This document shows, one piece after another, positions 22,181 through 41,128 of a DNA stretch of 64,000 nucleotides. The notes below the pieces were generated by a model. The model ran no database searches. It saw only the letters and a list, made by a program, of their open reading frames with translations, and was not told where the DNA came from. How positions within the stretch are numbered: the stretch's first letter is position 1; each line of letters opens with the position of its first letter. The position numbers were made by a program, and so were the translations under genes. The stretch covers positions 208,701 to 272,700 of the forward strand of contig CAUYUJ010015829.1 in the NCBI GenBank assembly GCA_963575745.1. The letters run 5' to 3'. Source of the stretch: Prorocentrum cordatum. Lineage: Eukaryota > Sar > Dinophyceae > Prorocentrales > Prorocentraceae.

Positions 22181-22382
22181 TCAGGACGAAGAGGAGGAAG
22201 AGTAGGAGGAGGAGGAAGAGGAGGAGGACGAGGAGGAGGAGGAGGAGGAGGAGGAGGGCAAGGAGGAGGAGAAGGAGGAGCACGAGGAGGAGAGGAGGAG
22301 AGGAGGAGGAGGGGGAGGAGGAGGATGAGGAGGAGAGGAGGAGGAGGAGGAGGAGAGAAGAAGAAGAAGAAGAAGAAGAGCG
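22181..22382 (+). repeat. (GGA)n microsatellite
   Basis: GAGGAG triplets with GAAGAA near the right end. It borders the 3' side of LINE B (which is on the minus strand), while a second GGA tract borders its 5' side at 27310-27450. Confidence 0.97.
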
Positions 22383-22528
22383 GCCTCGGGGGGCGGAGTC
22401 TGGCGTGTGCCTCGTTCGCTGGCCCCCGCCGTCGCCCGCACGGAGCGGGCGCCTTCACTCAGCTCACGGCGTCGCGCACGCCGAGCTTGATACCGACCAT
22501 GGCGTAGATAGTCGGCCTCCATAGAAAT

Positions 22529-23398
22529 TCATAGTCCTGCGAGCCAGGCAGCCAGCTCATCCTCCATGACTCCCGCTGGTGCTTTGCCCTCCTTGGCCAC
22601 TGCTCCAATCTGAAGTAGTGCTCGGTGGATGGTGTCCTTGATGTTGGTCCACTGCATCTGCTCCTGCGTCGGATCCTCCTCGTTCTCCGCGTCCGTCCAA
22701 GGGCCCTGCTCGATGTACAGCGTGAGCTTCGCTTGGTTGGAGTCGAAGCACTTGCTGAGCTTGATGTGTTTGACTTTGCGTAGTACCGTCGCTGCGTTGA
22801 TCTTGTCCAGGAACTGGCCGTGCTCCGTGAGTAGCGCCCTCGATTTGTTTCCCACGTCCTCTGAACAGAGGGTCATAATCAGTGTCATGTAGAGATGCCC
22901 CTCTGGTGGCCCTAAAGCGTGTGCTTTGCCCTGTTCCCTGCACTTCTCCGCGTAGACTTTGCGGCTGGTCTTGAGGGCCTTGGCCACGTTGTTCTGAATG
23001 GGCAAGAGGTGCGTGCTGAACACCGCTGCCATTATCCAAGCCAGCTGCTGCGTGTTGGCGAAAACTTGCTTGATGAGTACTGTGAGGAGCTTCTTGAGCT
23101 TGGGGTCGACTTTGGCACGGTAAGCTTCTCCCCCTTTCTTGGAACGAACTGCTCGGGCCCCTTGAACTGCTGCTGTGGCTGGTCCTCCCCCCGTAACTGG
23201 ATCGTCCTCGGCCTCCATGGCCGCTGTGTCCTCGCCCGCGCCCTCCTTGTCCTTGTCCTTGCCGCCCCCGCCCTTGCCGCCCTTCTTGCCGTTGTTGAGC
23301 TTGCGGTCCTTTTGGCTGCGCTCTGAGCCCGCGAGGCTGCTGGTGTCCTGCGCGATCTGCCTTTTGTTGGGCACAAGCCAGGTCATCGGCATGTGCAA
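22529..23398 (-). pseudogene. LINE B C-terminal Lys/Gly-rich linker and helical domain
   Basis: The frame is closed by TAG two codons upstream of TTG 23398, so it either continues the zinc-finger frame after a one-base change or starts at ATG 23392. It runs KRQIAQDTSSLAGSERSQKD, a Gly/Lys/Asp-rich spacer, then an ordinary helical region (PKLKKLLTVLIKQVF, FSTHLLPIQNNVAKALKTS, KAHALGPPEGHLYMTLIM) and ends at 22529. I do not recognise the helical domain. The codon-like composition, hydrophobic pattern and lack of internal stops over 289 codons argue for a real coding segment. It could be a separate downstream ORF of the element. Confidence 0.6.
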
Positions 23399-24806
23399 GT
23401 GCTAGCTGAGCAGTGGTGGTCCCCACGTCCAGTGAGATGATATGTTCTTCGACAGGTAGGTGTAATGCGCGAAAATGATCCCGCAAGGCTGATAGATGCT
23501 GAAACGGCTGCAGTTCGGGACAGAGAGTGCATGTGTAATCGTCGACGTCGATCAAAGGATGATGTAGGCGCGTGTTGTCAGCGAGGCATCTCTTGTCCTT
23601 TAGTGAGCGCAGCAGATGATCTTCGGCTTGAGCACGGTCCAAGAAGGTCGTGCGGCACAGCGGGCACTGATTAGTGACTGTAGCTGCAGCGGCTGCGGAA
23701 CGTAACCCGTGCTGACCACCTTTGGTAGCTGTCTGATGCGAACAGAGACCCGCCCACGTTTGAAATACACGCCCGCAGATTTCACCTGTGTCCGTCAACA
23801 ACTCGCATTTGAATTGTCCAAGTTCGTCGCCATCCCGTACTTCAGCAGCGGCCTCAAAGCCGGGTGGCGGGATAGCGACGGCTGTAGCCTTGTCCCTGAA
23901 CTCGGAGGGGTCAATGCTGAGAAATGCTTCTGGTACCTCTGCGTCGTGATAAAGCTGGGTAATGCTGCCGTCCCAGATGTAGCTGACTTGCTCTGCGCTG
24001 TCGAGTACCAGGAGCGAGCTCGCATCGTGAAAGAATTGCCAAGCCCACTGGTTGGCGCTGTCTTTGAGAGTGCCGTCGTCGTTGGGCTCGCTTGCATCAG
24101 GATCGATGTCCTTCTCGAACTGCGGTGTGCCGAAGAGGGCAGTGATCCACTGGTCGTAGTCGGCGCGGTACTTGACAGAGGCCTGGGTCATGCGAGTGTG
24201 CCTTACACGCATCTCGACGAACATGGGAGAGATGCCGCAGAACTTGAACACTTCTATGTTGGTCATGCTCTTGTAGCGTCCGTCGTCCTGCTGCGTAGTA
24301 GCCTTGCCATGCATGAGCACCCTGAGATACTTGATGATTGTGGTGTCCAACCTGCGCAGCTCGGTGTCCTTGATGAGGTAGGACTCCATGCCACTGGCCG
24401 CGGCGCCCACTATGCGGTTGATGAAGATGATGCGCTTGAGACGCCATGGGGCACGCCTGTGCCAGAGTTTGCCCATGATAGCCCAGGCCTTCTTCATACT
24501 TTGAATGCGGCGGTCAATCTCTATCGTGTTACTTCCTCCATGATGGAAGTGACCTCCGAGGTACTTCGTGGTGCGTAGAACTCGACCTGGCATGTGGGCT
24601 GCGAGGCTGCGGTTTTCTTTCCGTGTGCGAAGGCATCCAGCAATTTCCTCCTTGTCTTTGTTCTGCGAGTAGCCGTACTGCGCGAGCTTGTCATCGAGGA
24701 TGGTGTTGCTGGAGTTGAGGATATCTGCTGCTGCTTTGGCTGTACCTCTGCTGGCAATGTGTATTTTTGAGTATGTCGTCAACGTAAAGGTAGGCCGAGA
24801 GGTCAA
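23396..24806 (-). pseudogene. LINE B RT thumb and three zinc fingers
   Basis: Directly after the frame change the protein continues as KIHIASRGTAKAAADILNSS, then the YLG-equivalent thumb segment TTKYLGGHFHHGG and a helical region with MKKAWAIMGKLWHRRAPWRLK. Residues near 335-480 hold three Cys/His fingers: CELLTDTGEICG...H...H, CPLCRTTFLDRAQAEDH and CTLCPELQPFQHLSALRDH...H. C-terminal fingers in LINEs bind element RNA or target DNA. The frame is open to 22557, but the meaningful sequence ends near 23395, where the coding frame changes; the Gln/Gly-rich tail after that is a shadow. Confidence 0.8.
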
Positions 24807-26107
24807 TCATGTTGTGCGTGATGGGGGAGATGGTAGCGAACGGCTTGGAGTCTGATAGGGTCGCGTCGAGCCACTGGCCGATTGGCTGCTCGTAGACAAA
24901 GTTGAATGAGGTGGGTCCTGTGCTGCAGCCAGGCATCACTCCTGAACCTACAGAGAAATCTCCAGACTTGTCGCATCCGTCTATCTGCACCGTAGCGCAG
25001 CGATACCGTTGGGCAGACAACCGCTGTTCTGCGTCGGCCAAGCACTGCGGGATAAGCTCGACCGCTTTGTCGATCATCGTGCTCGGGAAGGCGTTGGTGG
25101 CGTCCATCCTGCCAACGATGAAATCGATGTTGGGGCGCGGCAATCTGGTGGCCATGATGCGCGATGCAGCCATTGGAACTTCTCTGCGGCGGCGTGGCCA
25201 GCATCCGTGAGCATGAGGAGGAGGTGCCCACGGCAGTGACTGGCATTGTAGTTGACGGTACACGCAGCGACAGAATGGACAGACCATGTGCAGTATACGC
25301 AATCCTTGAACTGAGGGCTTGGCGTTCATCTTGTCTGGCGTGAAACTTTGGCTGTGATGGGCGTCCAATGGAGCTAAGCCGACCAGATAGACATGACCGA
25401 GTAGCCCTTCGAAACAGTTGTCTGTCCAGGGCGCCTCCATCAGCTCCTCGTTGAAACCGAGGCCTTGGGTCTGCGGCTTTCTCTTTGTAGTAGCTGTAGG
25501 CTGCAGGGTGATCTGGAACATTTCTGCTGGTAACGACCACTCGGGAACTGAGGCTCGTTTTTTGAAGTATTTCGGGCGCCTCTTGACTCCGAGGTATAGC
25601 TTGCCCAAGTTCTCCTTCGCCTCGGAATACTCGTACTTGAACTGCTGCTTGACATCGTCGCCCAGGTCCTCCATGGCGGACAGGAGCAGTTTTTTCTTTT
25701 CCTCGTAGTCAATCAGTTGAGCTTGAACACCTCCGCGAGCCCCTGTGAGTGCCACGTGCGAAGTCCACTCGGCGAGGCTCGGTCTCGAACGGGTTGCCCT
25801 GCTGTAGTTGCGGTTCCTCTTGCCGTAATTGGTCCCTGCCACGCGCCTGCTGAGTCTATGTGTATCTGCGTGCTGCCTTTTTTGCCATGCCTCAAAAAAC
25901 TGTGTCTCTAACGTTCTCTTGCGTTCTTGCGTTCTGCGTCGTGAAATTGCTTCTGCTTCTTGATAGCTCTCGTGGGTGTGTCCAGCTTCTCCTCGATGTC
26001 CAGGTCGATCGCTTCGCCAATGTACTGCTTGCGTAACTCCTCTCTCTCTCTCTCTTTTCCCCAAAAGTTCGAGCTTCTCTGCCATGAGCTGCTTGGTGGT
26101 ACCTGGC
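24775..26107 (-). pseudogene. LINE B linker and reverse transcriptase core (YVDD intact)
   Basis: The linker is read in three pieces: MAEKLELLGKRERE (26085 on), a second frame EELRKQYIGEAIDLDIEEKL through FHDAERKNARER, then TLETQFFEAWQKRQ onward. Switches occur in a GA tract and near 25915. The RT palm has motif A RMDATNAFPST with Asp at 25102-25104, motif B GVMPGCSTGPTSFNF and motif C YLYVDD with the codons for YVDD at 24775-24786. Both catalytic elements are intact, the only RT in this window for which that is so. A frame change at A5 (24764-24768) separates it from the thumb. Function: reverse transcription of the element RNA at the nicked target. Confidence 0.85.
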
Positions 26108-27145
26108 TTTTTTATGTTTCCTCTCGAAGAAGGGCTTGGCAGTGGCCTTGAGCGTGTCGATCAGGAACTGCCAGTGCGCGTCTGTGGTGCACTGCTCCTG
26201 GAGCTCACGAATGGTATCTGTGTTGTTCGCCGGCGCGGTTTTTGGGGCTGGGATGAACTCGCTGCGATAAGCTCCAGTCTGCAGAGACTCAGCCATTTTG
26301 TCGAAATCCCAGAGCGTGCGATGCATGTCTGTGAAATTGTTGGGCATGACGACCTCGGCGCTGGCGATGAGTGGCACGTGGTCCCTTGGCACGTTGTCCT
26401 TGATCTGCTGAACTGCTTTCGCTGCCTTCCACCAAATACCGCATGTCTGAAGATTCTGCAGTAGCCCTTGAGGAACAACGAGGTAGTCGGGTCTCGTGGC
26501 TTGTTCTTCTGCACCGTAGTAGGTAGGGCCAGCATTCCAGAAGGTATTGGCAAGGCATAGTCCGTGTACGTCCAGCATGTTATAGAAGGCTGCCGCTGCT
26601 TCACCTGGCCGTCCGTGCGGTTGCGAGTCTCCGTAAACTTCATTAACTTCAGCCGCAATGAGCCCGTCAGCTCCGTAATGATTATTGAGGTCGATACCGA
26701 TCAGCGGTGTGCTGCGCGTCGGTGTGTCCTGAAGCGTCCTGTGGATCCACTTGAGCGTCTCATTGACCGTTTTTACCCACTGGTTGTGGTTGGCCGCAAG
26801 CCCCGATCGAGGCGGGACGTAGGCCACGATGAAGGTGAGGTCGAGCTCGCCCCGCCTGATGCGTAGTGCGCCAGCGCGGCCTTGAATCTGCTTGGGCGGG
26901 CTCTTGATATCGACGACGGCTCTCGGACCGAACCTCTTGCTGCTCACCATGATCGCGACGCCAGCATGGCTGTTGGTGAGAGGTCCGCGGCCATAGCCCC
27001 ACGTGTAGACGGTGTGGTTGAGAGTCTTGAGCTGGTCGACCTCGGAGCTGGCATCATGTTGTCGCCACCGCGTAGCTGGGAGCATCATCGCGTCCACGGC
27101 GCTGAATGCGTGGCTGATCTCGAGGCAGCGATGCGGTGCTAGCAT
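25892..27145 (-). pseudogene. LINE B APE-type endonuclease
   Basis: The frame opens at ATG 27145 and the domain covers about residues 1-260 of 417. Visible motifs are YVPPRSG, LIGIDLNNHYG (the Asp/Asn pair of the GDxN motif), NTFWNAGPTYY, ATRPDYLVVP and RDHVPLIAS (Asp-His of the last motif). This fold nicks target DNA to prime reverse transcription. The first catalytic strand (N and E motifs) is not seen upstream of the ATG, so the domain is probably incomplete. After residue 360 the reading frame leaves the true frame at an A6 run (26108-26113): the neighbouring frame reads KPGTTKQLMAEKLELLGKRE. The last 60 residues of this frame are therefore spurious. Confidence 0.8.
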
Positions 27146-27309
27146 CGAGAGTGGTTATATACTCCCCAGCGGAGGAACGGCATAACGATCCAGATCTTCA
27201 TGAAGAATATGGAGGCCAGCCAGGCTGGCATGACATGGAAGGCGCCCTCGGCGGGCGGAGCTGCTCTGCGCGGGGAGCCTGCTTGGCCGCTGAAAAGGAG
27301 GCAGGCAGG

Positions 27310-27450
27310 AGGAGAGGAGGAGGAGGAGGAGGAGGAGGAGGAGGAGGAGGAGGAGGAGGAGGAGGAGGAGGAGGAGGAGGAGGAGGAGGAGGAGGAGGAG
27401 GAGGAGGAGGAAGACGAGAAGAGGACGAGGAGGAGGAGGAGGTCCTTTCC
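27310..27450 (+). repeat. (GGA)n microsatellite at the 5' side of LINE B
   Basis: A GAG/GGA run of about 140 bases. Together with the GGA tract at 22181-22382 it brackets LINE B with the same strand polarity. Confidence 0.97.
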
Positions 27451-34007: not shown

Positions 34008-34172
34008 CCTCTCCTCCTCCTCTTCCTCCTCCTCCTTCTCCTCCTCTTTTCTCCTCCTCCTCCATCCTCCTCGTCCTCCTCCTCTCCTCCTCCTCCTCCT
34101 CCTCCATCCTCCTCCTCCTCATCCTACTCCTCCTCCTCCTCGTCCTCCTCCTCGTCCTCCTCCTCCTCGTCC
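34008..34172 (+). repeat. (CTC)n/(CTCGTC)n microsatellite abutting the LINE D spliced leader
   Basis: A pyrimidine run made of CCT triplets with CGT and CAT variants. Its last triplet, CTC at about 34170, touches the first base of the spliced leader at 34173. A matching tract begins at 40617 just after the 3' end of LINE D. Confidence 0.97.
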
Positions 34173-34194
34173 TCCGTAGCCATTTTGGCTCAAG
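34173..34194 (+). other. Dinoflagellate spliced-leader sequence (relict, at the 5' end of LINE D)
   Basis: These 22 bases, starting TCCGTAGCCATTTTGGC and ending TCAAG, agree at every base with the published dinoflagellate spliced leader (DCCGTAGCC...). In this group the leader is trans-spliced onto mRNA 5' ends. Here it lies in the genome, followed by GCCAAAATGG rather than the GT that would begin the intron part of a spliced-leader RNA gene, so it is a relict from a reverse-transcribed, trans-spliced mRNA and not a leader-RNA gene. It marks the exact 5' end of LINE D. CCATTTTGGC (34180-34189) and GCCAAAATGG (34195-34204) form a perfect 10-bp stem with a TCAAG loop. Confidence 0.93.
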
Positions 34195-34382
34195 GCCAAA
34201 ATGGTGACCATTTCACTGCCGATCTGTGGTAGGCTCCCACAGCTTTCAGTGCTCTTCGTATTTGCAGCCACACCCACGGGCGAGCTGCCGCCCACCGCAG
34301 CTACACTCAGGGGCGAGCTGCCGCCCAGTCCATATCCCTCCCTCGCGTGGCTCGCGAGAGCTCCCTGGGAAGCAGTGGGACG

Positions 34383-35558
34383 ATGGCCGCCGCAGACCGC
34401 GGTGGCGGGACCGCCCCAGCTGACGGAGGAGCTGCCGCCAATGGCGGCACCAGGCCGCGACGTGCACGCCCTGAAGGTGGACGAGGCTCGCCAGCAAGGT
34501 TCGCTGGCCAGTTCACGGTCTGCAAGCAGTGTCGATACCGATGGACGTGGAAGGGGAAGTCCGAGTGCTTCTACTGTGGCAAGCAGCTGGCCCCATCACC
34601 TGCCGAACACCGCCAGCCCACAGGGGCGTGGGCAGGAGTCAGCAAGCCACCGCCGTGGAAGGAGCAGCCAGTGGCCGTCGCCCCGACCAGGGACGCCATC
34701 ATCGCCACGCTCAGCACGCTCCTCAGCGACACCAAGCACGCCGAACTCGTCGGCCACCTCAAGGACGCCCTCCAGCAGCCCGACAAGTCGCAGCCTGCCC
34801 GCACTGCAGAGCAGGTGCTCCAGTCGGCGCTGTCTGTCCTCACAGACAGGGAGAAGAAGTTCAAGCAGTCGGTCGACGACGTCGAGGTCGCCAAGCAGTG
34901 GTACGACGACGCCGTGGCCAAACAATAGCAAGCCGCCCTGGACGTCGTCCAGGCACAGAACGCATGCGCCAAGGCGCAAGCGGACCACAGCGCCAAGCTT
35001 GCTGGAGCTGCACGCGGAGCACCACCAGTGGGACGTCAGGAAGCCTTCAAGGTCGACAGCTCGATGTGGGACGACCTCTCCATCTACGACGAGGGCACCC
35101 GCGCCCAGATGGAACAGTGGAAGCAAGAGCTCGACCAGCGCTTGGCCGAGCTCAACAACGGTCGAGAGAAAGTACGTGACCTCCTACGCCAAGCCAAGGA
35201 GTCCACCACCAACCCAGCGAAGCGGAAGAAGCCGTGTGGGGAGGAACCAGCTGCTCAGCAACCTCATCCTGAACCTGCTCCCGCTTCACCAGAGGAACAG
35301 CAGCCAGCGGCCGCACCTGGAAGACAGGAACAACCTGGCACGCCAGGAGGCTCTGCCGCCCCACCTGCTGAGCCGCGCCAGCCTGGAGGGGCCGCCCCTG
35401 CCGCCGACGAGCCCTCCGCGGAGGGCCGCAAGGCCGCCGCCGAGCTCATCGCCACCACCACCAGGGCCAGGGAGCTGGCCCACGCAGCTAAGGGCTTGGG
35501 CAAGGGCCCCACCGTGGCGCCAGCGGCAGCGGCAGGAGCCCCACCGTCGCTGGGGTAG
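34383..35558 (+). pseudogene. LINE D ORF1: RanBP2-like zinc finger, coiled coil, Pro/Ala tail
   Basis: ATG 34383 is the first in this frame downstream of the spliced leader; the frame is closed at 34230. Residues about 38-58 hold VCKQCRYRWTWKGKSECFYC, a C-x2-C-x11-C-x2-C finger. A helical part follows (TLSTLLSDTKHAELVGHLKD, TDREKKFKQSVDDVEVAKQW, QMEQWKQELDQRLAELNNGR), then a Pro/Ala/Glu-rich tail to TAG 35556-35558. One in-frame TAG (34926-34928) sits between CAA and CAA in a Gln-rich helix and most likely replaced CAG. ORF1 proteins of LINEs bind element RNA and chaperone nucleic acids. The same finger-plus-coiled-coil plan recurs in LINE E ORF1. Confidence 0.8.
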
Positions 35559-35561
35559 CCG

Positions 35562-37581
35562 CAAGCGGCCGCAGCGGCCGAGGGGGCATGGGAACCGCGC
35601 CAGGGGGCTCCCCACGGCAGGTGCACCCGCCCCAGAGCCCGGGCGGGCGGCCCAGATCCTGTTCGGCAACATAACGGCGTGGGGGCCGCAGGCCGCCAAC
35701 TTTTGTCGCAACGCAGGCTTCACATACCACCTCATAGCCCTGGCGGAGACGCACGTCGACGCGAACGGTATCACGGAGCAGATTGGCAAGCTCGCCATGG
35801 ACGGCTGGAAGCTGTCGGCCACACCCGCGGTGGCCACCAACAAATCGGACAGGGGGACCCATGGCGGCGAGTGGATCCTCACGCGCAGGGACGTGGCGGC
35901 GACCACGTTCGAGGGCTACAGGGACTACTACGTCAAGCGCCACAAGAGGCAGCCGTTCGTGGGCTCCACGCCGGCAGCCCTCCACTCCAAGAGCGGCAAC
36001 ATAGTCGTCCTAGCGGCGTGCCTGCGCCCTGGCCTACGGGGCCAAGGCGCGAACAGGGACATCCTGGTCTCCATCTCCACCTTCGTGGACATGCTCATGG
36101 ACCCGTGGATCATCCTGGCCGACAGGAACTACGAGCCGCACTGGTGGGACAACAAGCCGTGGCTCACGCGATGGAACGGCACCATTCTCACCGACCCGAG
36201 CTGCGAGGCGACGTGCGACAAGGGCTCGGGCTCCGTGTGCGATTACGCGATCGTACGGGCGGACATCGCCACGCACGTCGGGATCGAGGCCATCTACGAC
36301 GTCCCCTGGAAGACCCACTGCGGCATCCAGATCACGGTGGGCACCGCCGCGCCGTGGCAGTACAAAGCCATAAAGGTTCCCACAGCCCTCCCCGCACGAG
36401 CCAGACCCAAGAAGGTCGCGGACCCGAGCAGCAAAAGGTCCAAGGCTCGTGCGGAGGCGTTGCGAACCAGGAGGGAAAGGCGACCAGAGCACTTGCGCGA
36501 CGAGTTCGACGCCCTCTACTTCAACCGCGAGACGGCCAAGGAGGACCCCACCCCCTTCGTCATCCCCCAGCTGTGCTGGGACGCAGCCGCCGACGAGGTC
36601 AGCAACTTCCCGAAGTTCGATGGCGCAAAGGTCGGCACCAAGGAGGGCAGAGGACACATCTTCCACAACCATGCGCCGAACCTCGCGGAGAACATCAACT
36701 CGAAGTACGCGCAGTGGGTCGCGACCCTGGAACTCGCCTTCCTGGAGACGCACGCGGTCCCCGTCGAGGACAGGGCCAAGTACCAGGGCAGGGCAGAGGG
36801 GTACAGGACCACCAAGCAGACGATGAAGGCGTCGCCTGGCAGAGCGTACCTCAACGACCCCGAGGCTACATGGTGGCAGCACCTCAGCACCCTCGTGGCG
36901 AGGTACACTGCGCTGGTCACCAACGGCAAGGACCCCGAAGCCCGCCAGCACATCCACAAGACAGTCATGAAGAAGCTGGACGACCTAGAGAACCCTGAGT
37001 TCTCCAAGGAGCTCTTCGGCAGGAAAACCGACCCGCAGGAGATCGAAGAGTGGAAGACCCAGCTCGTTACCCTCGAGTACTGCGACGTGGCTGACTTGCA
37101 CCGCGTCAGCGCCACCACCATGGAGTGGGCCCACAGAGCCATGGCGAGAGCTGCAGGCAGAGCGCGAAAACGCTATATCGACTGGGCGAAACAGGCGTGG
37201 AAGGACTCACCAGGCAAGCTGCGCCGCATGGTCACTGACCCCAAGGCGCCGCGCCTGGAGGGCAAGCAGCCCCAGAGAACGGTGGGCGACCAGTCCACGC
37301 TCATGAACCACTCTGCCGACACCTGGCGCTCCATCTGGGCGTCCGACAGCTACAACGCCAAGCAGATCATCAGCGCATATGAGAAGGCCATGCGGCTCGC
37401 GAAGGAGGACCCCCTCCCGCTAATCGAGCCGCAGCACATACAGGCCATCGTGGGCACCGCCAACCCGAAGAAGGCGAGAGGAGTCGACAACATCGGCCCC
37501 ATCGACATCCAGAGGCTCCCCGAGAAAGGGGTCCAGGAGCTCGCCGAGATCTACAACCAGGTGGATGCCAACGGACTGTGA
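35562..37581 (+). pseudogene. LINE D ORF2 part 1: APE-type endonuclease and RT entry
   Basis: The endonuclease starts at ILFGNITAWGPQA (about 35661). Motifs are IALAETHVD (Glu), IILADRNYEPHWW (Asp and Asn of the GDxN strand), VCDYAIVRAD and WKTHCGIQITV (His of the last strand; the usual Asp before it is Thr). A long linker follows, then the RT entry PKKARGVDNIGPIDIQRLPE and YNQVDANGL, where TGA (37579-37581) replaces what should be a Trp codon: the frame continues PQQLCATIGAMAPKP directly. The frame is 1126 codons long from ATG 34201, but the part before about 35600 is a shadow of ORF1. The true ORF2 start is not clear. Confidence 0.85.
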
Positions 37582-38868
37582 CCTCAGCAGCTCTGCGCCA
37601 CCATTGGGGCCATGGCCCCCAAGCCCGCAGGTGGAGAGGGAATCTTGGGCATGCTCCCCACAACCCCCAAGACCTGGGCCAAGGTCCGCTCCAGTGTCAC
37701 CGACGAGTGGTCCAAGGAGCGCGGGGAGTTCTGGGACACCGCCATCAAAAGGCTCCAGCGCCGTAAGGGCAGCGCTAGTCAGGGCGCTCCTTGACGAGAC
37801 GGCGGCGACCTTGGGCATTGCTTTCGCGACCTTGCTGATGGACGTAGAGAAGTTCTGCGACTCGGTCTGCTACGCGGCCCTCTTCGACGCCGCGATCGGG
37901 GTCAACTTCCCCCCGATTGTCGTGGCGATGGAGGTGCAGCTCTACCTTGCGCCCAGGTACTTGCGGATGCACGGCTGGGTCAGCGACATCATAGACGCCG
38001 AGAGGTCCATAGTCGCGGGCAGCTGCAATGGCGGCAAGCCCGCCAAGGTCTACCTGGGGCCGATCCCAGGTGGCCCACATCAACCACACGTACGCGGGCC
38101 TGTGGACGTTCGTGGGCGACACGGTCGCGAGGACAGAGGGCCAAACCAAGCAGGTCATCGGGGATCTCATCGGGGTTGGCGCCGACCTATTCGAAGGTAT
38201 GACGGGTGCGGGGCTCCGAGTCTCCCCCAAGACCACCGTCGTCGCCTCCAGCCAGGCGGTCGCCTACGCAGTGCACGACGGCCTCACGAAGAAGGGCCAC
38301 CACGTCAAGGTGGCCAACAGCGCGGTCGACCTTGGCATCGACGTGGGAGGCGCCAAGAGACGGGTTGTCGCTAAGGCAATCAAGAGGACCAGGACCGCGA
38401 GGAGGCGCACTCACCGCATCGTCGCCAAGGTCAGGAAGCACGCCTCCCTCGCCAAGATCGCGAAGGGCTTGTGGAACACGGGGTCCAGGCCACAGGGGAC
38501 CTACGGTCACCAGATCATGGGCCTCGCCCCAGCGGCCATCCTCGACCAGAGGCGCCAGGCCGTCCAGGCTACGGCGGGGAAGGTCCCTGGCCGCTGTCTC
38601 TACAGCCCTCGCCGTCGTCATGGGGAAGAAGGACCCCGCGATCGAGCTCAGGCGCCAGTCGATCGCCGAGTGGCTCAACGTCTGGATGCAGTACCCAGAA
38701 CACCGCAGTCGGGTCACGCAGGCGTGGAAGCGGATCTACGACAAGTCGATCAAGTACGGCAGCAAGAAGTGGAGGAAGGTCAAGGGGCCCATCTCCGCCA
38801 TCCAGGCCATCCTCCTGGACGCAGGCTGGACTTGCCCGATGCCAACGGAGTGGTCGCGACCTCCGTAG
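37582..38868 (+). pseudogene. LINE D ORF2 part 2: reverse transcriptase, motif C Asp replaced
   Basis: The fingers read PQQLCATIGAMAPKP to EFWDTAIK; an extra A in AAAA (37747-37750) shifts the frame to GSSAVRAALVRALLDE. Motif A is LLMDVEKFCDSV with Asp at 37841-37843. Near 38060 the frame shifts again to QVAHINHTYAGLWTFVGDT. There the codons GTG GGC GAC (38112-38120) give V-G-D where V-D-D is expected, so the first catalytic Asp of motif C is Gly. The thumb follows (GLRVSPKTTVVASSQAVAYA, ARRRTHRIVAKVRKHASLAK), with a third frame change at GGGGA near 38578 leading to RSLAAVSTALAVVMGKKD and a TAG at 38866-38868. Confidence 0.85.
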
Positions 38869-40564: not shown

Positions 40565-40616
40565 AATGCGTTTGGCATCGCCCGAACTTCGCACCTGGGT
40601 GCGCTCGGTCTGTTCC

Positions 40617-40734
40617 TTTGTTCCTCCTCCTCGTCCTCCTCCTCCTCGTCCTCCTGCTCCTCCTCCTCTTCCTCCTCCTCCTCCTCCTCCCCCTCCTCCT
40701 CCTCCTTCTCCTCCTCATTTCCCCCCCCCCCCCC

Positions 40735-40769
<35 letters not shown>

Positions 40770-40968
40770 GCTCCTCCTCCTCCTCCTCCTTTTCCACCCT
40801 CCTCCTCCATCCTCGTCCTCCTCCTCGTCCTCCTCCTCCGCCTCCTCCTCCTCCTCCATCCTCCTCCTCCTCCTCCTCCTCGTCCTCCTCCTCCTGCTCC
40901 TCGCCCTCCTCCTCCTCCTCGTCCTCCTCCTCCTCCTGCTCCTCCTCCTCCTCCTCCTCCTCCTCTTC

Positions 40969-41021
<53 letters not shown>

Positions 41022-41128
41022 CCTCCATCCTCCTCCTCCGCCTCCTCCTCCTCGTCCTCCTCCTCCTCGTCCTCCTCCTCCTCCTCGTCCTCCTCCTCGT
41101 CCTCCTCTTCCTCCTCCTCTTCCTCGCG
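40617..41128 (+). repeat. (CTC)n microsatellite between LINE D and LINE C
   Basis: Pyrimidine triplets with CGT, a long C run (about 40721-40744) and two pure CT runs (40745-40770 and 40975-41020). It touches the 3' end of LINE D and the truncated 5' end of LINE C, both on the plus strand. Confidence 0.97.

Follow-up and report, generated by a model that had tools for sequence, protein, structure and literature searches.

Relict spliced leaders of dinoflagellate retrogenes were reportedly described by Slamovits and Keeling in 2008. SLACS and CRE target spliced-leader genes, and Dong is a microsatellite-targeting non-LTR retrotransposon. In the portions of the literature drawn on here, the relict leaders of dinoflagellate retrogenes are explained by copying of the leader into the genome from trans-spliced RNA (PMC3229502; PMC6050394; PMC7245778), and tandem leaders that break off at an AG after nucleotide 7 are a published relict pattern (PMC3229502). 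As for the retrogene machinery, the parts of the sources used here favour Ty1/copia in one case (PMC6050394) and leave the matter open in another (PMC12014239), while the closest known report argues, in the sections drawn on, that LINEs mediated the retroposition of a viral gene bearing relict leaders (PMC10235124). Togen is a non-LTR retrotransposon that targets (TG)n, described in a paper whose sections used here also name SLACS, CRE and NeSL as LINEs (PMC4640811), and R2 carries a 5′ self-cleaving ribozyme (PMC3774820, in part). The Prorocentrum cordatum genome paper reports leaders in transcripts and, in the parts drawn on, does not mention leaders on LINEs (PMC10666404). A literature search that covered few subscription journals or preprints, with sources available in part, turned up no description of dinoflagellate LINEs that begin with a leader or are targeted to CTC. 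Dinoflagellates commonly carry leader-tagged retrogenes, and the machinery behind these is unsettled; a retroelement family that bears the leader itself and has fixed ends and a defined target offers a testable candidate.

We analyzed such an element, LINE D, of 6.4–6.5 kb, in a 64,000-nucleotide stretch of the P. cordatum genome (the window). Comparison of its copies makes it probable, at roughly 80%, that LINE D is a CTC-targeted LINE-like family, inserted in one orientation, whose mobile RNA is trans-spliced, with the leader becoming the first 22 bases of the copy.

Boundaries of LINE D

The bases at the 5′ end of LINE D read TCCGTAGCCATTTTGGCTCAAG, an exact match to the 22-nt dinoflagellate spliced leader DCCGTAGCCATTTTGGCTCAAG (Table 1). 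This is the sole match in the window at up to three mismatches, and 100 shuffles gave none. A CTC tandem array runs up to the leader, and the 5′ region of LINE D follows directly, so that the earlier note on this DNA, which had described exactly this arrangement of microsatellite, leader and element, is borne out. The first ten element bases, 34195–34204 (GCCAAAATGG), are the reverse complement of leader bases 34180–34189; the hairpin that these can form was absent from that note.

Table 1. Features of the window copy of LINE D and its flanks (positions in the window)
Feature	Position	Strand	Basis and remarks
CTC microsatellite, 5′ side of insertion target	34011..34172	.	Tandem array 34011–34175; similar tract 5′ of 60/63 LINE D copies
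5′ copy of probable 30-nt target-site duplication	34143..34172	+	Identical to 40622–40651; two CGT interruptions
Spliced leader, 5′ terminus of LINE D	34173..34194	+	Exact match; leader at equivalent place in other copies
Perfect 10-bp hairpin, leader with first 10 element bases	34180..34204	+	Inverted repeat; loop TCAAG contains the leader's last AG
First ATG, 6 nt past leader	34201..34203	+	Sequence; candidate start codon only
Possible H-type pseudoknot GCC-GAT-CTGTGG-TA-GGC-TC-CCACAG	34218..34242	+	Scan; weak
ORF1 start with zinc-ribbon-like CxxC...CxxC, TAG-terminated in window copy	34383..34928	+	Reading frames; Pfam sub-threshold, best E 0.054
Rest of ORF1 frame past that TAG	34929..35558	+	Reading frames
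Endonuclease-like region, limits approximate	35641..36400	+	Sub-threshold Exo_endo_phos in copy L071 and 2/6 relatives
Reverse-transcriptase-like region, frameshifted in window copy	37700..38699	+	Protein-search relatives; one of three with sub-threshold RVT_1
3′ terminus of LINE D, without poly(A)	40610..40621	+	CTGTTCCTTTGT in window, CTGTTCCTCTGT elsewhere; 15/17 other readable copies end alike
CTC microsatellite, 3′ side of insertion target	40622..41125	.	Tandem array
3′ copy of probable target-site duplication	40622..40651	+	Identical to 34143–34172

Other copies were sought in the P. cordatum assembly (4,128,499,153 bases in 21,875 contigs). A 528-base query running from the leader into the element gave 41 matches from the 40 scored of 324 candidates, and all 40 scored 5′ ends align from query base 1–12, which places the start of the element inside the leader. 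By the script rule, a tract stands 5′ of the leader in 27 of the first 30 copies (22 CTC and 5 other pyrimidine), and one precedes the leader in all of the next 10. Less biased sampling used a 29-mer of the element lying 3′ of the leader, at up to two mismatches, which occurs at 61 places in the genome (reversed control, 0): 38 from the first search, three reached through the list of 3′ ends and 20 new. The element begins at a complete, sometimes mutated, leader in 60 of the 61, with only part of one in L045, and this outcome of the genome search is the one the earlier note's proposal predicted. A pyrimidine, CTC-type tract lies directly 5′ of the leader in 59 of the 61 (exceptions L045 and L050), and what stands upstream in those 59 is the tract, neither a continuation of the element nor a host-gene relict. 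The places chosen solely by the 29-mer agree: the leader is present in 20 of 20 with 0–3 mismatches, and the tract satisfies the script rule in 19, the twentieth (L154) having a short one.

Together with L038 and L052 from the first search, 63 copies on different contigs were read, with a complete leader in 61 and a partial one in the other two; short upstream tracts are found in L154 and L127/L128. Since L041/L044 and L127/L128 have identical flanks and L163/L165 look alike, independent insertions are slightly fewer. Selection by the 3′ end instead (40 scored of 163 candidates) gave 28 copies that have a matching scored 5′ end 6,147–6,505 bases away. The remaining 12 comprise three that show the leader, three in gaps and six without a leader in the 141 bases fetched; these six may be truncated or shifted by indels, and two of their stretches are CTC tract.

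Thirteen of the 63 copies have a doubled leader, joined at the leader's own AG (the AG of CCGTAG), and these are spread over more than one LINE D subfamily; the leader is single in 48 of the 61 complete copies. A complete or truncated leader at the 5′ boundary and a tandem leader joined at this AG are the marks of leader-tagged retrocopies, and doubling at CCGTAG is, in published work, the sign that a retroposed leader has been trans-spliced anew, which argues for repeated trans-splicing. The tandem relicts that the earlier note wanted counted at element 5′ ends are therefore present, and its claim that LINE D RNA was trans-spliced before retrotransposition gains support from the leader boundary, the upstream tract and the doubled leaders.

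At the other end of the element, 22 3′ regions were fetched, of which 17 were readable, four were wholly or partly N and one (L121) gave no match. Fifteen of the 17 end at one base and two are shorter, by 4 and 23 nt; L118 and L119 have short repeats of the terminal bases. None of the 17 carries poly(A), and all run into a CTC-type tract. In all 18 copies with both ends readable, the window copy included, the adjacent 30 nt on either side hold 27–30 pyrimidines in one orientation, that is, one simple repeat on both sides in fixed orientation, as expected of microsatellite targeting. A tract 5′ of a trans-spliced leader cannot belong to the RNA, so the CTC there would be target sequence. Duplication of the flanks is clear in the window copy and gives a weak signal in the set, both for exact duplications of at least 12 nt (6/18 copies vs. 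46/306 swapped pairs) and for those of at least 15 nt with one mismatch (13/18 vs. 118/306). The earlier note had missed that CTC sequence forms the insertion target at either end of the element. The window also holds a minus-strand LINE-like element (22183–27442) between two CCT tracts, without a leader, whose 5′ boundary resembles a polypyrimidine tract followed by CAG.

Coding capacity of LINE D

The endonuclease-like and reverse-transcriptase-like regions both have P. cordatum relatives by protein search. No Pfam endonuclease match was obtained in the window copy; Exo_endo_phos matches below the cut-off were found in copy L071 (E 0.0067) and in relatives P0005 (0.021) and P0009 (0.028), the last also with Exo_endo_phos_2 (0.016, below cut-off), and the other four of the six relatives scanned had no endonuclease match. 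Similarly, the LINE D copies scanned have no Pfam reverse-transcriptase match, and the relatives gave matches below the cut-off to RVT_1 (P0002, E 0.0084) and zf-RVT (P0003, E 0.032). Picked out by eye, the order D, GS..GGK, FVDD, PKT in this region is presumably that of the reverse-transcriptase motifs. The window copy and three others read mid-element all contain frameshifts or stops, for which assembly error is possible. Structure models of the reverse-transcriptase-like frame (pLDDT 36.8) and the endonuclease-like frame (pLDDT 30.0) were unusable, and profile searches against solved structures returned no meaningful match. A different LINE-like frame from the window, used as a protein query, gave one protein at 24% identity, which is uninformative.

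Leaders elsewhere in the genome

The genome contains 24,192 leaders at up to one mismatch and 12,939 exact ones with the D base included; the reversed control gave 0 for each. Twelve pyrimidines directly precede 3,624 of the 12,939 exact leaders (28%), compared with a background of 3.3% before DCC trinucleotides in the flanks of 30 loci. We took the first 70 leaders in listing order (100 were listed of the 24,192), which is not a random draw. Judged by the 30 nt upstream, 26 follow CTC sequence and 13 GAG, 5 follow other pyrimidine or purine sequence, 3 another microsatellite and 23 none of these, against a window background by the same rule of about 1.4% each for CTC and GAG; among the 23, CTC runs that are shorter or imperfect occur in L102, L104 and L112.

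Clustering by downstream similarity placed 38 of 71 sequences (the 70 and LINE D) in 13 clusters, most of one flank type, with two that mix CTC and GAG (L003/L080/L085 and L086/L089) and some outside microsatellites. LINE D is not alone, as the 28% of exact leaders behind pyrimidines shows, and several unrelated downstream families share the leader boundary. An ATG directly follows the leader in 13 of the 70 loci, 12 of them in pyrimidine context. Within the 1–1.5 kb downstream that was examined for each leader, and from which most of the 70 are not identified as LINEs, a strict zinc-ribbon pattern occurs in 8 of 70 (reverse-strand control, 0/70), six of the eight in microsatellite context. 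The LINE D family accounts for part of the genome's many leaders beside CTC tracts.

Several of these loci differ from LINE D in arrangement. Leaders in the opposite (GAG) orientation are seen in L015, L076, L089, L090, L108 and L109, and L076 forms one family with L078, which is purine-rich; this hints at family-specific orientation, though two clusters mix CTC and GAG. Four copies of another leader family (L011, L073, L082 and L103; GCCATG..GACGACCGCGAGTC) all lie outside CTC tracts, with TA-rich, CA-rich or other sequence upstream and perhaps a different target. Near-identical leader-bearing units stand in tandem, 3–5 kb apart and outside microsatellites, on contig C39 (L098, L099 and L100), and in L102 an inverted tandem leader-like sequence is followed by a CTC tract and then by a leader in forward orientation, which may be two elements placed head to head within one tract. 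Two exact dinoflagellate leaders also occur on an AT-rich contig of 7.2 kb that IMG/VR lists as viral (L031:1936–2913); one is followed by a 254-aa frame of different composition, and from its sequence the contig looks like a case of leader-tagged dinoflagellate cDNA captured by a giant-virus-like genome.

Downstream of the leader, 13 of the 70 loci (L001, L005, L007, L009, L017, L027, L029, L074, L084, L104, L105, L110 and L112) share the arrangement GGA-L1-S2-L2-TCC-S2′ within 100 nt, starting 25–55 nt past the leader. Six covarying second stems are seen (CCGC/GCGG, CCCT/AGGG, CCTC/GAGG, CCCC/GGGG, GCTGC/GCAGC and CGCTC/GAGCG), and such paired changes are hard to explain except as a compact H-type pseudoknot. 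Shuffled sets gave a mean of 0.2 loci (largest 2 in 200 sets) and windows farther downstream gave 2 of 490, in a test that is not independent, the strict GGA...TCC form having been defined on the 70 loci tested, some of them one family. A general pseudoknot scan at score 20 found 38 of 71 sequences against a shuffle mean of 19.9 and maximum of 29, a modest excess. The corresponding structure in LINE D requires a T that the window copy alone of 61 possesses; the others mostly read CTGGGG, and their second stem is mismatched. Judging from the structured 5′ RNA of R2, as described in the sections drawn on, our guess is that the pseudoknot may be a binding site for the protein of the element. With an E limit of 1, at which a distant form could escape, Rfam searches of 14 loci, L032 included, gave no HDV-like ribozyme match at the 5′ end, and no Rfam family accounted for the 5′ region; one sub-threshold snoRNA match fell upstream of the element in L032.

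Proposed trans-splicing, its alternatives and known systems

In the proposed route, the LINE D transcript would be trans-spliced to the 22-nt host leader, making a mature host-style mRNA the mobile RNA, and reverse transcription would reach the cap end, so that the new copy would open with the 22 leader bases. We infer that insertion proceeds by target-primed reverse transcription at the GA-rich strand, with which the fixed 3′ ends inside the CTC tract are consistent. New copies would then be transcribed by read-through, and in the next round the CTC tract would serve as polypyrimidine tract and the leader's own AGs as acceptors. Copies with a single leader would need the other AG, in the last bases of the leader and inside the hairpin loop; that the hairpin steers acceptor choice is speculation.

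The leader may instead have been captured once or a few times and now be inherited, with read-through RNA bearing CUC repeats at both ends annealing to CTC tracts and the leader internal. We consider this unlikely, yet it has several observations in its favor, among them the CTC-type tracts that flank all 18 copies with both ends readable. Copies at different loci have leader variants in common: six carry C>T at position 16 (two of the six with identical flanks), three carry A>G at position 5, and at position 8 three carry C>A and two C>T. On their distribution, these variants look partly inherited and speak for either partial inheritance or variant SL RNAs; because several mutations are common to different copies, the leader may or may not be re-added in every round. 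Variability in the leader is also near that of the next 168 nt (mean pairwise difference 0.038 vs. 0.050) across 25 copies, the five of 30 that were truncated, doubled or duplicated having been excluded. The same 25 copies have 0 of 21 parsimony-informative sites in the leader vs. 21 of 168 downstream, which weighs weakly the other way, as shared leader variants emerged with more copies. Inheritance from few captures is also at odds with the unrelated downstream families that have one leader boundary, and with the doubling in more than one LINE D subfamily, which points to repeated trans-splicing.

Direct joining of leader and element might equally suggest a LINE of the SLACS/CRE/NeSL kind that targets spliced-leader RNA genes or leader relicts, the leader being the split target. 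This is very improbable: no remainder of the leader lies 3′ of the window copy, a CTC tract occupies the 17 other readable 3′ junctions as well as the 5′ flank, and the leader is complete to its cap-proximal base. On the missing 3′ remainder and the CTC at readable 3′ junctions, insertion into leader genes was rejected. Host-gene leader relicts are known in dinoflagellates from the sources cited above, and one such retrogene relict could by chance adjoin a LINE copy, but 61 of 63 copies, lying on different contigs, repeat this junction, which makes such an accident scarcely credible, and the number of copies led us to reject both a chance match and a host-gene relict.

If LINE D is indeed mobilized as a trans-spliced RNA, a broader picture can be drawn, which we offer tentatively and at somewhat below even odds. 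LINE D would belong to a promoterless LINE superfamily that has ceded its 5′ end to the host: insertion into CTC, in the pyrimidine orientation, would supply a polypyrimidine tract by the leader AGs, and read-through RNA would be trans-spliced, capped, translatable and transposable again. The same machinery may scatter leader-tagged host retrogenes.

Set beside the published systems, as the portions of the sources cited above describe them, LINE D resembles the dinoflagellate retrogene relicts in having a genomic leader that would come from trans-spliced RNA and a tandem leader cut after nucleotide 7 at an AG. In the retrogene relicts, however, the mobile unit is a host gene, recognized in transcripts or gene models, whereas LINE D is an autonomous-type family with fixed ends and a CTC target. 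Insertion into simple repeats is shared with Togen and Dong, from which LINE D differs in its CTC target, its dinoflagellate host and its 5′ spliced leader; the weak matches of its endonuclease-like region also point toward the APE type rather than the restriction-like type. SLACS, CRE and NeSL likewise link a LINE physically to a spliced leader, but they insert into leader genes, while in LINE D the leader would be added to the element. R2, like LINE D, is a target-specific LINE that defines its own 5′ end from a longer co-transcript; R2 excises itself by a ribozyme, and LINE D appears to use host trans-splicing, which would place host trans-splicing alongside promoters and ribozymes as a means by which target-specific LINEs set their 5′ ends.
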